Assembly (NCBI GenBank): GCA_030427905.1
Contig: JAUICL010000003.1
Location: 124,001 to 188,000, forward strand
Direction of reading: 5' to 3'
DNA length: 64,000 bases
Origin: Bacteroidia bacterium
GTDB taxonomy: Bacteria; Bacteroidota; Bacteroidia; Flavobacteriales_D; Cryomorphaceae
The notes beneath the pieces were generated by a model. The model searched no databases and was not told the DNA's origin. It was given only the letters and a program-made list of their open reading frames with translations. The position numbers and the translations under genes are program-made. Positions 16,807 to 39,915 of this stretch are shown here, in pieces. Numbering within the stretch: the first letter of the stretch is position 1; every line of letters starts with the position of its first letter.

Positions 16807-16901
16807 GTTTAATAACGGCTAAATGTTGAATGAATAGGAAATACAAAAAACAAAACCATAGCGGTATATCACACAGGGTGTGTTATTACCCGTTGCCACA
16901 C
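16807..16901. repeat. Palindromic junction 0, upstream edge of the cassette-like array
   Basis: The left arm AATAACGGCTAAATG (from 16811) is loosely complementary to the right arm ending GTTATTACCCGTTGCC. Inside lies a CACAC-AGGG-TGTG hairpin (about 16870-16882). The right edge GTTGCCACAC (16892-16901) is the exact reverse complement of the sequence just after the next gene (17531-17540). Confidence 0.5.
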
Positions 16902-16910
16902 ATTAAAAAA

Positions 16911-17519
16911 ATGAAGACACTGATATACATTTTGACTGTCCTGACAATAATTGGGTGTAGTAATTCAAACGACAATGGAAGAGTGTCTGAAACCATTGAA
17001 ACTGAATCACAGTCTTTAACTGATTCAACAATTGAAGTTGAAGAAACTCAAACTGCAAATAATGAAGTTGAGCAAATCGAATCAAGTAAATGCTCAGGAA
17101 CAATAAGCGACTTTTTGAAACTTAACCATCAAGACCTACAAACAGACTTGTTCGAAAAAATTGATTCTATTCGAAAAGTTCAGTATCCCGAAAATGACCA
17201 GGAAACTTCAATAATGGTCGACTTGACAGCAGAGTATTTGACTCGATTCTTAAATGACATTGACGCTGATTCGTTGACGAAAAATCAACGATTTGAAAAA
17301 GAGTATCATTTTAATATTGCACCTGAAGGTTTTACTGACCCAACGGACTGTAAAGACAAAATCGCAGTCAGTTTTGATGACAAGGACTGTTCATTTAGAT
17401 TGAATATTTACAATACGTTTCTTGTTGAACCAAATTGGTGCACGGAATCAATGGTTGTTTATGGTTTCAAAATCAAAAACAGCAGAATCATTGACTTTTG
17501 GAGACAGGAAGCAGGATAA
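16911..17519 (+). CDS. Small lipoprotein, unknown function (cassette-like gene 1)
   Basis: 202 residues from ATG 16911. A frame from 16830 exists, but the signal sequence begins at MKTLIYIL, so the later start is right. The lipobox is TIIGCS with Cys16, followed by a Ser/Thr/Glu-rich linker to about residue 60 and a soluble domain with several Cys (KCSG, DCKDK, KDCSF, NWCTES) that could form disulfides. No family is recognised. It is bounded by a perfect 10-bp inverted repeat (16892-16901 and 17531-17540). AT-rich codon use resembles its accessory neighbours more than the flanking chromosome. Confidence 0.75.
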   Translation: MKTLIYILTVLTIIGCSNSNDNGRVSETIETESQSLTDSTIEVEETQTANNEVEQIESSKCSGTISDFLKLNHQDLQTDLFEKIDSIRKVQYPENDQETSIMVDLTAEYLTRFLNDIDADSLTKNQRFEKEYHFNIAPEGFTDPTDCKDKIAVSFDDKDCSFRLNIYNTFLVEPNWCTESMVVYGFKIKNSRIIDFWRQEAG

Positions 17520-17530
17520 AAAATAAAAAC

Positions 17531-17730
17531 GTGTGGCAACAAAACCTATACGCAATGCGGGCTGAAGGAATAAAAGAAAGGTCGGTGCTTTTAGCCCGCC
17601 AAAGCTCCGCTTTGACGTTTTTGTTGAATGAATTTAAAAACACAAAACACAGCTTTGGCTACAGTTCGTGCAAGATTGAAAGTTTCGGCTTTTCAATCCC
17701 GCACTGCGCATAGCCGGGTCGTTGCCGCAC
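17531..17730. repeat. 200-bp imperfect palindrome between cassette-like genes 1 and 2
   Basis: GTGTGGCAAC (17531-17540) plus 17541-17561 on the left is complementary, with mismatches, to 17698-17720 plus GTTGCCGCAC (17721-17730) on the right. The inner part has two further hairpins, AAAGC-TCC-GCTTT (about 17608) and TTGAAAG...CTTTTCAA. An apparent 71-codon frame across it is not a gene. The two outermost cores differ at one position, and each matches the boundary of its own neighbouring gene. Confidence 0.7.
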
Positions 17731-17746
17731 ATGCAAAAAAACAGAC

Positions 17747-18406
17747 ATGGAATTAAAAATTGACTCGGAAGACTTAGAAGACATGCTTCTTAAAATCGAA
17801 GACTCGTTCGACATTCGATTTGAGACAAATGAATTAGCCCATGTTAGAACTTATGGCGAATTCTGTGACGCGATAAAAGATAAAATCAGTCTCGACCATT
17901 CTGAAGATTGTACCACTCAACAAGCTTTTTATAAGCTAAGGGAAGCGATAACAAAATCGACTGATATTGACAGAAAAGATATCACTCCGACTACAACACT
18001 TGCGGAATTATTCCCAAAGAAGAATAGAAAGAATCAGATAAAAATCCTCGAAATGACTTTAGGATTTAAGCTGTTAATCTTACGACCGCCATACTTTGTT
18101 TCCGGGTCTTTAGCGTTTTTGTTGTTAGCTTCTTTTATTATGCTTTTCGTTCATTGGCAATATGGACTTATTGGACTTGGAATATCAATAGGCGGCATTT
18201 GGATTGCGAGTAAATTAGGTAATGAACTTGCCGTGGCGACTATTGGAGATTTATCCGAAAAGATGACAAGAGAGCATTACGTAAAATCTAGAAGGAACTC
18301 AAAGACGATTAATAAGAATGAGCTTGATAGAATTCTCGAAGATTGGTTTGTAGACTTCTTAGGAGTTAGAAAGTCTGAATTGACAAAAGAAGCTCAACTA
18401 TTTTGA
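17747..18406 (+). CDS. Membrane protein with ACP-like termini, unknown function (cassette-like gene 2)
   Basis: 219 residues. Residues about 8-46 (LEDMLLKIEDSFDIRF...TYGEFCDAI) have the helix spacing of an acyl-carrier protein but no DSL serine. Residues about 198-219 (LDRILEDWFVDFLGV) look like the first helix of another such domain. Two membrane helices lie in the middle, near residues 122-138 and 141-157. No family name can be given; the ACP resemblance is by eye. It is bounded by GTTGCCGC before (17721) and GCGGCAAC after (18425-18432). Confidence 0.65.
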   Translation: MELKIDSEDLEDMLLKIEDSFDIRFETNELAHVRTYGEFCDAIKDKISLDHSEDCTTQQAFYKLREAITKSTDIDRKDITPTTTLAELFPKKNRKNQIKILEMTLGFKLLILRPPYFVSGSLAFLLLASFIMLFVHWQYGLIGLGISIGGIWIASKLGNELAVATIGDLSEKMTREHYVKSRRNSKTINKNELDRILEDWFVDFLGVRKSELTKEAQLF

Positions 18407-18422
18407 AATAGATAAAAACCCA

Positions 18423-18490
18423 ACGCGGCAACAACGAGTTTTGTGTATGACCTGCAGGACACGCACCATACACAAAATGTTGTAGGTAAT
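18423..18490. repeat. Palindromic junction between cassette-like genes 2 and 3
   Basis: The arms ACAAC-GAG-TTTTGTGTATG and CATACACAAAA-T-GTTGT flank a short centre with CCTGCAGG. The left outer core GCGGCAAC (18425-18432) mirrors the start of gene 2's unit; the right core GTTGTAGGTA (18479-18488) mirrors TACCTACAAC after gene 3. One arm has extra bases, the asymmetry also typical of integron attC stems. Confidence 0.7.
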
Positions 18491-18494
18491 TGAA

Positions 18495-18887
18495 ATGGAT
18501 AAACTTATATCTGCATATATAACGCTGATTACATTACTGTCCTGCTCATTCAGCACTGACATGAGAGACAGGCAACCTTCAGGATATTGGACGGTTGACC
18601 CTAATATTGAGCTTGAATGCAAGACATATTATATCCAAAAGTCGAAACTTAGAAAAAACCAACATGGCTATTTCTTTAATGAGCCAGGCCAAGTCACAAT
18701 TCGCATGAACGCTGCGGGATGTGCGATTGTCGATGAAAAAGGCGATACCCACACTCTTTTATCTGATGTAAAAGGGAAATACGAACGGATAGGTGAAAAC
18801 TTGTATTTATTGACTTATGAATCATTTATGGGGGTCCATAAAGATGTTGTCTATTTCGACGGACAAAAAATGTATTTGAGACATTAG
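18495..18887 (+). CDS. Small lipoprotein, unknown function (cassette-like gene 3)
   Basis: 130 residues with a lipoprotein signal (LITLLSCS, Cys17) and a small domain likely to be all-beta (GYWTVDPN, GQVTIRMN, VYFDGQKMYLRH). No family is recognised. Its unit is bounded by a perfect inverted pair, GTTGTAGGTA (18479-18488) and TACCTACAAC (18893-18902). Confidence 0.7.
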   Translation: MDKLISAYITLITLLSCSFSTDMRDRQPSGYWTVDPNIELECKTYYIQKSKLRKNQHGYFFNEPGQVTIRMNAAGCAIVDEKGDTHTLLSDVKGKYERIGENLYLLTYESFMGVHKDVVYFDGQKMYLRH

Positions 18888-18903
18888 ACAACTACCTACA
18901 ACT

Positions 18904-19055
18904 ACTAAGCCTTCGTTTGGTCTGAAAGTTTAAAAGCTGGAATAGGTTCGAGTTAAATTTAGGTCTGATTCCACAACCTGTCCTAATGCATTGGAATCCT
19001 TGTTCAACATATATAAGAGATTTAAACTAAATTGGTGGTTTTTGCGGGGGACTCC
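18904..19055. repeat. 152-bp intergenic repeat, copy 1
   Basis: Begins ACTAAGCCTTCG directly after the TACCTACAAC boundary of gene 3 and ends GCGGGGGACTCC. It is nearly identical to 19449-19600 and 21999-22149 (about 5-8 differences each). Internal inverted pairs are AGTTTAAA with TTTAAACT and GATTCCA with TGGAATC, around a CCTAATGCATTGG centre. No coding capacity. Confidence 0.95.
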
Positions 19056-19437: not shown

Positions 19438-19448
19438 CTGAGCCAACA

Positions 19449-19600
19449 ACTAAGCCTTCGTTTGGTCTGAAAGTTTAAAAGCTGGAATAGGGTCGAGTTA
19501 AATTCAGGTCTGATTCCACAAGCTGTCCTAATGCATTGGAATCCTTGTTCAACACATAATAAGAGATTTAAACTAAATTGGTGGATTTTGCGGGGGCTCC
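19449..19600. repeat. 152-bp intergenic repeat, copy 2
   Basis: Same limits as copy 1 (ACTAAGCC to GGGGGCTCC). The three copies share their ends exactly but not the sequence beyond them, which defines the element. Confidence 0.95.
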
Positions 19601-19970: not shown

Positions 19971-20001
19971 TTTGTTTCGTTAGGACTCCTTACTATATTT
20001 G
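19971..20001 (+). promoter_or_regulatory. Promoter with embedded palindromic operator before the thioredoxin-like gene
   Basis: TTTG (19971-19974), a 19-bp spacer and TATATTTG (19994-20001) are a perfect phylum promoter. Within the spacer lies GTTAGGA-C-TCCTTAC (19979-19993), a 15-bp near-perfect palindrome. Related palindromes occur at 20293-20326 and 21340-21354, so this is probably the binding site of the MarR regulator encoded at 21385. Binding there would block RNA polymerase. Confidence 0.75.
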
Positions 20002-20041
20002 TAAGGCAATAATGCAATAACAGTTTAAATTCATTCAGAAA

Positions 20042-20275
20042 ATGAGCAAATCAATTTTTTATCACGCAGGTTGTCCAGTTTGTGTAAGTGCAGAACAGGA
20101 CATAGTAAACTTAATCGGAGTTGACAACGTGGAAGTTGTTCACATTGGCGAAGACAGGTCCAGAATTTCAGAAGCTGAAAATGCAGGCGTAAAATCTGTA
20201 CCAGCATTGGTAACGCCAAAAGGAAATGCCCTTCACATCAACTTTGGTGCATCAATGGCAGATGTAAAAGCCTAA
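20042..20275 (+). CDS. Small thioredoxin/glutaredoxin-like protein with CPVC motif
   Basis: 77 residues. The redox motif is Cys11-Pro-Val-Cys14 after a first strand (SIFYHAG). SVPALV supplies the cis-proline loop of the thioredoxin fold. The protein is much shorter than classical thioredoxin, closer to a glutaredoxin-like or minimal fold, and has no signal peptide, so it acts in the cytoplasm. It follows the operator-bearing promoter and is grouped with DUF2024 and MarR genes, which suggests a thiol-linked function (inference). Confidence 0.8.
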   Translation: MSKSIFYHAGCPVCVSAEQDIVNLIGVDNVEVVHIGEDRSRISEAENAGVKSVPALVTPKGNALHINFGASMADVKA

Positions 20276-20291
20276 AATTTTTAGACCACAT

Positions 20292-20326
20292 AGTTAGGAT
20301 TCCGAATTATTATTGGAGTCCTAACT
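20292..20326. promoter_or_regulatory. Double operator before the exported-protein gene
   Basis: AGTTAGGATTCC (20292-20303) and GGAGTCCTAACT (20315-20326) form a long inverted repeat. They can also be read as two adjacent imperfect copies of the GTTAGGA-N-TCCTAAC site, with centres 18 bp apart. It lies 19 bp before the ATG at 20345. No clear -7 box was found, so this gene may also be read from the upstream promoter. Confidence 0.7.
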
Positions 20327-21384: not shown

Positions 21385-21996
21385 ATGGATAATAGCTTAT
21401 TTAACCCAAAACAACAGGAAATAGATACTTCGAGTAAAATCGTTGCAGGATTGGAACGTATTTCGGAAGTGTTCAAAGTATTGCTATGGGAAAAAGCCAA
21501 AATGGTAGGTTTAAGTCCAATCCAAATTCAGATACTAATTTTTATAGCATTCCACAAGCAGGAATTGTGCAATGTGAGCCATTTAGCCAAAGAGTTTAAT
21601 GTAACCAAGCCAACAATCAGCGATGCGGTCAAGGTTTTGGACAAAAAAGGAATGGTTTCAAAAAACTTTTCAACTTCGGACAGTCGTAGCTACTTACTAC
21701 AGCTGACCGAAATGGGAAAAAAATTGGTGACAGAAACAAATGATTTCGCTACATCTCTCAAAAAGCAGATTGACAAATTCAATGAAAGTGAATTGGAAAG
21801 CCTTTTTAGTACAATAAGCCAACTTATTTTTAAATTAAACCGAAGTGGAATATTGACTGTTCAACGTACTTGTTATGGATGCACATATTATCAAAAAAAT
21901 AACGGAATAGACTACTGTAACCTACTACAAAAAGAATTAAAGACTACTGAAATTCGCTTGGATTGCCCAGAATTTGAAGAGAAAGCCAGTGGCTAA
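21385..21996 (+). CDS. MarR-family regulator with C-terminal cysteine cluster
   Basis: 203 residues from ATG 21385. The winged helix-turn-helix lies at about residues 45-115: LAKEFNVTKPTISDAVKVLDKKG is the recognition region and SDSRSYLLQLTEMG the wing. After the dimerisation helix comes a tail of about 45 residues with four Cys (CYGCTYY, DYCNLL, LDCPEF), longer than plain MarR proteins. The spacing suggests a metal or iron-sulfur site, or a thiol switch. Probable targets are its own gene and the thioredoxin-like and exported-protein genes, by the shared palindrome. Its stop codon abuts repeat copy 3. Confidence 0.88.
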   Translation: MDNSLFNPKQQEIDTSSKIVAGLERISEVFKVLLWEKAKMVGLSPIQIQILIFIAFHKQELCNVSHLAKEFNVTKPTISDAVKVLDKKGMVSKNFSTSDSRSYLLQLTEMGKKLVTETNDFATSLKKQIDKFNESELESLFSTISQLIFKLNRSGILTVQRTCYGCTYYQKNNGIDYCNLLQKELKTTEIRLDCPEFEEKASG

Positions 21997-21998
21997 CA

Positions 21999-22149
21999 AC
22001 TAAGCCTTCGTTTGGTCTGAAAGTTTAATAGCTGGAATAGGGTCGAGTTAAATTCAGGTCTGATTCCACAACCTGTCCTAATGCATTGGAATCCTTGTTC
22101 AACACATAATAAGAGATTTAAACTAAATTGGTGTTTTTGCGGGGGCTCC
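21999..22149. repeat. 151-bp intergenic repeat, copy 3
   Basis: Starts 2 bp after the marR stop codon (ACTAAGCC) and ends GGGGGCTCC. It marks the downstream edge of the accessory region. The 330 bp after it, to 22482, contain only short frames broken by stops, with no gene supported. Confidence 0.95.
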
Positions 22150-37281: not shown

Positions 37282-37622
37282 ATGTCGAAAAAGCGAGAGC
37301 TATTTTTCTTCAAGGATTACTTTGAAAAGTTTTTGACAGTCAAGATGACAAGGTCAAAAAGAAAATATTGTGGACTTTACGGGTGATCACTGAACTAGAT
37401 CAAGTTCCTGAGATTTATTTAAAGCACATCAAGAACTCTTCGGGAATTTACGAAATCAGAGTCCAGGTCGGGAACAACATATTTCGAATCTTCTGCTTCT
37501 TCGATATCGACAAATTGGTAGTCATTGGTCACGGATTCCAAAAAAAGACTCAAAAGACACCGAAGCAACAAATTGAGAGAGCCGAACAAATAAAACGGGA
37601 ATATTATGAAAGCAAGGAATAG
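37282..37622 (+). pseudogene. HigB/RelE-like toxin with a one-base frameshift near the N-terminus
   Basis: The frame from ATG 37282 reads MSKKRELFFFKDYFEKF and then shifts at a run of five T (37330-37334). Adding one T restores DSQDDKVKKKILWTLRVI and the rest of the domain, with YEIRVQVGNNIFRIFCFF and QKKTQKTP, which matches the intact homologue at 42783-43124. Without correction the toxin cannot be made from this start; a shorter product from TTG 37368 would lack the first helix. It overlaps the antitoxin gene by 17 bp. It is either an inactivated toxin or a sequencing error in a homopolymer. Confidence 0.8.
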
Positions 37623-37914
37623 AAACCTGACGAGTCTTGACGAGTTCATCGACAAGAAAGTCGGTAAAATCGGTACAGAAAGTCGGGAGCTATTTGAGAG
37701 TGAATATGACACGTATAAGCTCGGCGTTCTAATCCAGCAAGCCCGCGAGAAAAAGGGGTTGACACAAGAACAGCTGGCTAAACTTGCGGGAACCAACAAG
37801 TCTTACATTTCGAGATTAGAACGGAATTTAAAGGACATCCGATTCTCGACTCTACAGCGCATTATCAATGATGGACTAGGTGGACACCTTGATATCTCAA
37901 TCAACTTGGACTAA
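37606..37914 (+). CDS. XRE-family antitoxin (HigA-like)
   Basis: 102 residues. The helix-turn-helix covers about residues 45-98: IQQAREKKGLTQEQLAKLAGTNKSYISRLER. The N-terminal 40 residues (SLDEFIDKKVGKIGTESRELFESEY) are the toxin-neutralising extension typical of HigA-like antitoxins encoded after their toxin. It overlaps the toxin gene and probably represses the shared promoter. It is intact, unlike its partner. Confidence 0.92.
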   Translation: MKARNRNLTSLDEFIDKKVGKIGTESRELFESEYDTYKLGVLIQQAREKKGLTQEQLAKLAGTNKSYISRLERNLKDIRFSTLQRIINDGLGGHLDISINLD

Positions 37915-39376: not shown

Positions 39377-39619
39377 ATGGCAACAGTTGATAAAATAAGA
39401 AGTCAGTTAATCGACAAAATAATGGCTATTAAGAATAAAGATTTTCTGGAAGCCCTCGATAACCTTGTAGCTTCTAGCAGTTCGGCTTCAGACGTTGTAG
39501 AACTTACGTCTGAGCAAAAAGAGATGCTCGAAATGAGTGAAATGGATATTGAAGCCGGTCGACTTATTTCTCAAGACGCAATGAACAAACGTAATCTTGA
39601 ATGGCTAAACGGACAGTAG
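39377..39619 (+). CDS. Antitoxin of a ParDE/RelBE-like pair
   Basis: 80 residues. The pattern (IRSQLIDKIMAIKNKDFLEALDNL, then LTSEQKEMLEMSEMDIEAGRLIS) is that of short Bacteroidota antitoxins that precede a RelE/ParE toxin; the C-terminal acidic helix wraps the toxin. It overlaps the toxin gene by 19 bp, so the two are translationally coupled. The DNA-binding part is not clear. Confidence 0.85.
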   Translation: MATVDKIRSQLIDKIMAIKNKDFLEALDNLVASSSSASDVVELTSEQKEMLEMSEMDIEAGRLISQDAMNKRNLEWLNGQ

Positions 39620-39915
39620 TTTGGACAAGAACAGCAGACATTCAATACGCCGGCATTCTTCAATTCTGGGTCGATAAAAACAAATCAAATACTTACTCGA
39701 AGAAGCTAATAAAGCGGGTATCCGCTCGCACCGAGCAAATTGCCAAGAATCCCTTTCTCTATAAATCAGCTGACTTCAAGAATACGCGTGTAGCCTCTCT
39801 TGGACATTTCAGTATATATTACCAAGTGCTCGAGAATAAGATAATTGTTACCGCATTCTGGGACAATAGACAGGACTCCAAAAAATTGATGGAAATTTTA
39901 AAGGCTAAAAAATAA
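39601..39915 (+). CDS. RelE/ParE-family toxin
   Basis: 104 residues with the RelE/ParE fold pattern: N-terminal VVWTRTADIQYAGILQFW, central ARTEQIAKNPFLYKS, and C-terminal HFSIYYQVLENKIIVTAFWDNRQD. The FWDNRQDSKKL tail is typical of the Bacteroidota ParE-like branch. Members inhibit DNA gyrase or cleave mRNA; which applies here is unknown. The frame is intact. It follows its antitoxin directly. Confidence 0.9.
   Translation: MAKRTVVWTRTADIQYAGILQFWVDKNKSNTYSKKLIKRVSARTEQIAKNPFLYKSADFKNTRVASLGHFSIYYQVLENKIIVTAFWDNRQDSKKLMEILKAKK

Follow-up and report, generated by a model that had tools for sequence, protein, structure and literature searches.

Integrons of the chromosomal type found in Vibrio, in which an integrase (IntI) acts with a leader site (attI) and cassette sites (attC), are the closest described systems to the locus reported here. 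The I2 helix of IntI docks extrahelical bases and has been credited as the innovation through which integrons acquired single-strand recombination (PMC7790495). In Treponema integrons the integrase gene is transcribed toward its array (PMC3607928). Complete integrons are rarely reported in Bacteroidetes; the available parts of the IntegronFinder 2.0 survey name one, in Salinibacter ruber M1, and term the patchy distribution of integrons intriguing (PMC9024848). We analysed a stretch of 64,000 nucleotides (the window) from a Bacteroidia bacterium of the Cryomorphaceae (assembly GCA_030427905.1, contig JAUICL010000003.1, positions 124,001 to 188,000 of the forward strand), in which an initial annotation had likened three consecutive genes to integron cassettes. 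Positions 16863-18902 are very probably an orphan array of three cassettes, belonging to an integron-like system found in Bacteroidota. Judged from sequence, this system is an integron by its organisation and inferred mechanism, and is not a canonical one by the marks of an I2-bearing IntI or a GTTRRRY core. The features of the array, in window positions, are as follows.

16863..16891, + strand: attI-like leader, an imperfect palindrome (GGTATATCACAC-AGG-GTGTGTTATTACC) centred 15.5 bp upstream of the first GTT
16892..17540, + strand: putative cassette 1, core to core, with exact 10-bp matched cores GTTGCCACAC (16892-16901) and GTGTGGCAAC (17531-17540); gene 16911-17519, a putative lipoprotein
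17541..17720, - strand: attC-like site of cassette 1, arms CTATACGCAATGCGGG and CCCGCACTGCGCATAG; the bottom strand folds more stably than the top
17721..18432, + strand: putative cassette 2, core to core, with matched 8-bp cores GTTGCCGC (17721-17728) and GCGGCAAC (18425-18432); gene 17747-18406
18433..18478, - strand: attC-like site of cassette 2, arms TTTTGTGTATG and CATACACAAAA
18479..18902, + strand: putative cassette 3, core to core, with exact 10-bp matched cores GTTGTAGGTA (18479-18488) and TACCTACAAC (18893-18902); gene 18495-18887, a small putative lipoprotein
18897..19050, + strand: 154-nt direct repeat after the last cassette, with more copies at 19442-19595 and 21992-22145

The six core positions and the three open reading frames (ORFs) given by the initial annotation were all exact. 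Its argument that the matched cores mark cassettes held only in part. By themselves the pairs prove nothing, since they are no commoner here than in shuffled sequence: 7 pairs of at least 9 bp occur in the window and 7.45 in shuffles. The tiling of the three units, on the other hand, was far from anything seen in the shuffles. We scored chains of consecutive core-matched units that also had inverted-repeat arms between them. The three-unit chain scored 37.7, and no other chain in the window exceeded 9.7; the maxima were 20.3 in 30 whole-window shuffles and 18.3 in 200 local shuffles, none of which reached 37.7. Paired terminators or repeat palindromes between genes, with cores matched by coincidence or through duplicated repeats, would account for the equal frequency of core pairs in shuffles, and intergenic hairpins are common in bacteria. 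This explanation is opposed by the tiling and, in the relatives described below, by the presence of arrays only 3' of one integrase family and by identical cassettes that occupy different positions and end at GTT. It is refuted for the relatives; for the window, where the refutation rests on identical anatomy and the chain score, we consider it barely credible.

Folding of the bottom strand supported the hairpins proposed between the genes (z -4.12 for 17531-17730 and z -3.90 for 18423-18490, relative to shuffles); the top strand of the second of these gave z -2.40. The stretch before gene 1 (16807-16901), which had been taken for another hairpin site, gave a fold z of -0.51 and is instead attI-like. 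A leader palindrome with its centre 15.5-18 bp before the first GTT was present in 10 of 17 leaders, including those on contigs C1, C4 and C8 of the same genome and others 3' of intact integrases in relatives. The motif TAnnTTTG, which we take to be the Bacteroidetes -7 promoter consensus, precedes the first cassette in 6 of the 17 leaders (G009, L147, L164, L165, L166 and L167) and is possibly a cassette promoter. Tiling, hairpin sites between the genes and a leader before the first of them all bear out the reading of the three genes as cassettes. The G+C content of the array region is 37%, against about 46%, a pattern such as would be expected for acquired DNA. Copies of the 154-nt repeat are 82-95% alike, each beginning at a ...CAAC end, and partial copies terminate arrays of the same genome at C1:387199 and C4:9560; the repeat might serve as a site at array ends, or be a long site that has degenerated.

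The intergenic palindromes had been described as hybrids, whose outer cores match the adjoining cassette rather than each other, and this pattern proved general. Among 170 cassettes, the unselected core positions 8, 9 and 10 matched within the cassette in 92, 86 and 72% of cases, and across one palindrome in 44, 43 and 34%. Since agreement of the core bases past GTTR is far more frequent within a cassette than across a site, each cassette probably once was a circle, and its two cores would match each other for that reason. Sequence comparison shows the cassette as a unit of GTT-gene-AAC with its own 3' hairpin site. The ends of the sites read YAACG...TTGTTR and the cores GTTR.../...YAAC; in length the sites vary widely. 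The integron consensus GTTRRRY, said by the initial annotation not to be satisfied, was present in 13 of the 170 cassettes, which is at or below chance, as 12.5% is expected after GTTR.

The bottom strand was more stable than the top in 122 of 143 sites (p 1.6e-18, thermodynamic evidence), a p-value that overstates independence because the sites are related within arrays. Pairing of the site arms was measured with per-site offsets, since one common offset for all arms failed; when an arm was paired with its true partner, the best 12-bp window contained 9.6 Watson-Crick pairs on average, and when it was paired with an arm taken from a different array, 6.8. Of the imperfect pairs, 160 are G.T on the bottom strand, whereas G.T on the top strand would account for 34. 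Strand stability and G.T bias agree in fitting the use of a folded bottom strand.

We searched the same genome by family, by DNA and with chosen stretches, and the number of arrays obtained is a lower bound. The DNA search with the site gave weak matches only, yet it led to an array on contig C1, in which four tiled units have exact cores of 9-10 bp (GTTGTAGCAC, GTTAGCTGC, GTTGTGCTT and GTTGGTAGGC) and are flanked by a similar leader and by the 3' repeat as in the window. The initial annotation had noted the lack of an integrase. None is present in the window, but the genome search revealed on contig C8 a C-terminal remnant (101 residues) of a tyrosine recombinase of the right family, followed by a similar leader. 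The order on C8 is integrase remnant, leader palindrome ending in ATCCAATT directly before GTT, cassette, hairpin site, second cassette (GTTAGCGAGC) and ParD/ParE-like genes. No recombinase of the genome exceeded the cut-off of the IntI profile TIGR02249; since the remnant on C8 is the only integrase trace, we regard the window array as an orphan, with no integrase nearby, sites of the variant kind and its matching integrase reduced to a remnant on another contig. The ParD/ParE-like toxin-antitoxin genes (L030 4236-4776) lie within the C8 array, as such genes do in large chromosomal integrons.

The first C8 site contains a group II intron (Rfam, TIGR04416; assigned at the group II level), which lies at TTGT/T in the orientation opposite to the cassettes. 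On the bottom strand its exons are AGCCATTGT and TATATGC, and their joining regenerates GTTATATGC, the core of the first C8 cassette. The known targets of group IIC-attC introns lie on the bottom strand of attC, at TTGT/T of R'', and the inserted introns are oriented against the cassettes (PMC7923331). Because the position of the C8 intron matches this rule, an unrelated mobile element appears to treat the site as an attC.

In relatives, arrays were found directly 3' of a full-length integrase in genomes G009 (23 cassettes), G099, G003, G105 and G141, and in G004 with one cassette; shorter chains lie 3' of the integrases of G101 and G083. In most loci the array starts about 50-160 bp past the integrase stop codon, and 57 of 64 longest ORFs of cassettes are on the + strand. 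Named genomes were scanned separately: 17 integrase loci of Bacteroidota that had 3 kb or more of downstream sequence and, as controls, 24 recombinase loci from outside the Bacteroidota. A downstream array was detected at 10 of the 17, for example in Winogradskyella ursingii, Seonamhaeicola aphaedonensis, Aequorivita sinensis, Flavobacterium enshiense, Algibacter onchidii and Rufibacter sp., and at none of the 24 controls; chain scores in the upstream flanks of the named-genome integrases were never beyond the shuffle range. The chain detector found no array in G045 (L114) or G042 (L117), both of which have integrase relatives. The draft contigs of G010, G013, G125, G148, G074 and G075 stop about 40-200 bp past the integrase stop codon, which suggests that downstream repeats break the assemblies of these draft genomes and so hide such arrays.

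Queries with the remnant and then with a full-length relative showed members of the integrase family in 72 of the 150 genomes searched from the window's order; not all of these have arrays, and arrays of up to 23 cassettes occur in Flavobacteriaceae and beyond. The relatives suggest that the window's genome is one of the Flavobacteriales. The catalytic residues of tyrosine recombinases are present in the family, as read from the alignment. The initial annotation had suspected a recombination system other than the textbook one, and the cores and the integrase both agree with this. Two array-linked integrases scored 184.5 and 189.1 bits against TIGR02249, below its cut-off of 265, and 226.0 and 227.3 bits against the XerA-type family NF040815, above its cut-off of 220. 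The spacing between two conserved motifs is 52-54 residues (58 in one) in 19 array-linked integrases and 95 in all but one IntI row; the array integrases, about 41 residues short, lack the IntI insertion with the I2 helix, and their alignment to the Vibrio cholerae integron integrase (PDB 2a3v) is split. Phylogenetically, the IntI rows group in a clade (100/100) and so, with modest support (88/73), do the array integrases in a second one.

These results bear on the possibility that an ordinary IntI produced the window array, which would then be a canonical integron array (CALIN) overlooked for its divergent cores. Such an origin would fit the site ends YAACG...TTGTTR with their attC-like strand choice and the intron that treats one C8 site as an attC, and a tree uniting the array integrases with IntI is not rejected (p-AU 0.21). 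Profile score, insertion and core mostly refute it, however, for the genome has no IntI over the cut-off, the array integrases lack the insertion, and GTTRRRY is at the rarity given above; we consider this origin quite unlikely. Canonical IntI over the cut-off was found in 84 of 296 sampled Bacteroidota genomes outside the window's class and is almost absent inside the class (L222-L233).

Compared with Vibrio-type integrons, the Bacteroidota system is alike in the leader site adjoining the integrase gene, the unrelated and mostly co-oriented genes, the single foldable site at the 3' end of each cassette, the GTT exchange and bottom-strand preference, the rapid turnover of content and the presence of toxin-antitoxin genes in an array. 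Unlike them, it has an integrase without the I2 insertion and below the IntI cut-off, which is transcribed toward the array and in most members is extended at its N-terminus by an extra domain of some 75 residues, and its cores are GTTR plus variable bases, 7-10 bp long and cassette-specific, instead of GTTRRRY. The Treponema integrons with inverted intI are described as an intI system, whereas the Bacteroidota family is without the IntI insertion. Xer and archaeal XerA proteins likewise lack the insertion, and they provide the closest curated family (NF040815) and the best sequence and fold matches (5hxy and 4a8e); unlike them, the Bacteroidota family is tied to cassette arrays and most of its members have the extra domain. 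This domain cannot be strictly required, since the integrase of G141 lacks it and yet has an array. One member matched the HARP family PF07443 weakly (E 0.00099), and the top two Foldseek matches of the domain were to the SMARCAL1 HARP domain 4o66, again weakly (E 0.23-0.32); HARP was not among the matches listed by VIA-align, and the fold searches with the domain gave no clear match. In an integrase relative of 547 residues (G005, L055 114-1757) the N-terminal domain is apparently repeated three times.

The chromosome of G099 carries several arrays, and its 63 cassettes include units with copies elsewhere that are 99.7-100% identical: one of 521 bp in four places, two of 526 and 583 bp in three places and one of 394 bp in two, some of them in arrays separated by hundreds of kb. 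Five pairs are clean: their identity spans the gene and the whole 3' site (right extension 159-182 bp) and ends at or a few bases past the next GTT, beyond which the following cassettes differ; leftward of GTT it mostly extends over 5-16 bp. Exchange at GTT would be expected to leave such an asymmetry if each site travels with the gene upstream of it. Species of the same genus have sites in common, and no cassette body in common among the matches listed.

We infer that catalysis is by the integrase of this family. Its substrate would be a single-stranded or circular cassette whose site has folded from the bottom strand. Cleavage would fall at the GTT of this site, and the cassette would be joined either to another site or to the attI-like leader, so that cassettes may be captured, excised and reshuffled; they would probably be expressed from outside. 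The process would run without the I2 helix by which IntI docks extrahelical bases, and the window array would be frozen unless an integrase came from elsewhere. More tentatively, single-strand cassette capture might have arisen twice, with Bacteroidota integrases recombining folded sites without an I2 helix and perhaps reading the hairpin through the N-terminal domain with its weak resemblance to the branched-DNA-binding HARP; we think this possible and rather unlikely.

Several observations weigh against an integron-like array, besides the limits already given for the strand p-value and the intron class. All the evidence is comparative, and no recombination was observed. At seven of the 17 Bacteroidota integrase loci that had enough downstream sequence, the chain detector found no array, and in the arrays of L164 and G101 the top strand folds equally well or better. 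The window's cassettes were not found a second time, and the window's genus is represented by one genome. In G099 other copy pairs diverge inside the 3' site, with breaks at 111-127 bp, and one pair extends 85 bp leftward; homologous exchange therefore probably also acts. It could be argued that the cassettes move through homologous recombination between similar sites and not by site-specific recombination at all, as many G099 sites are about 80-95% alike and several copies diverge within the site rather than at its end. We hold this to be highly improbable as the whole explanation, because several copies retain the whole 3' site, break at the next GTT and keep almost nothing on the left, because cassette-specific matched cores would require a circular intermediate, and because the sites are dissimilar in many arrays elsewhere.

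Most of 55 cassette proteins had no Pfam match, and each matched family was found once only; the families include superoxide dismutase, cation efflux, MerT, DNA methyltransferase and uracil-DNA glycosylase, among others. PADLOC assigned UzuA, LmuA, PD-Lambda-5_B, PDC-M48B and methyltransferases. In the window, the protein of cassette 1 had no significant family in Pfam and NCBIfam profile searches; that of cassette 2 has an acyl-carrier-like N-terminus (sub-threshold acyl carrier protein matches) and membrane segments read off the sequence. If the array reading is true, a large reservoir of mobile genes, among them the defence genes UzuA, LmuA and methyltransferases, would have been overlooked; such arrays would be missed because integron tools seek the IntI insertion and GTTRRRY-type sites. 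Arrays of this kind are not mentioned in the available parts of the IntegronFinder 2.0 survey (PMC9024848), and canonical IntI in our samples lies almost only outside the window's class. A search of the open-access literature, with preprints and subscription papers outside its range, found no description of this Bacteroidota system. The system makes it testable whether the I2 helix is needed at all for single-strand recombination.

An Rfam scan over 20 kb of the window gave no match at the cassette sites, and the array as query gave none in a plasmid collection or in a distant BLAST search. A further unit at 19979-20325, with an 11-bp pair (GTTAGGACTCC) around a thioredoxin-like gene, was rejected as a cassette, having no adjoining hairpin sites and lying near chance. 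Elsewhere in the window, at 37368-37914 and 39377-39915, there are two small gene pairs of low G+C content that are toxin-antitoxin-like (by eye, HigBA-like and RelBE-like).
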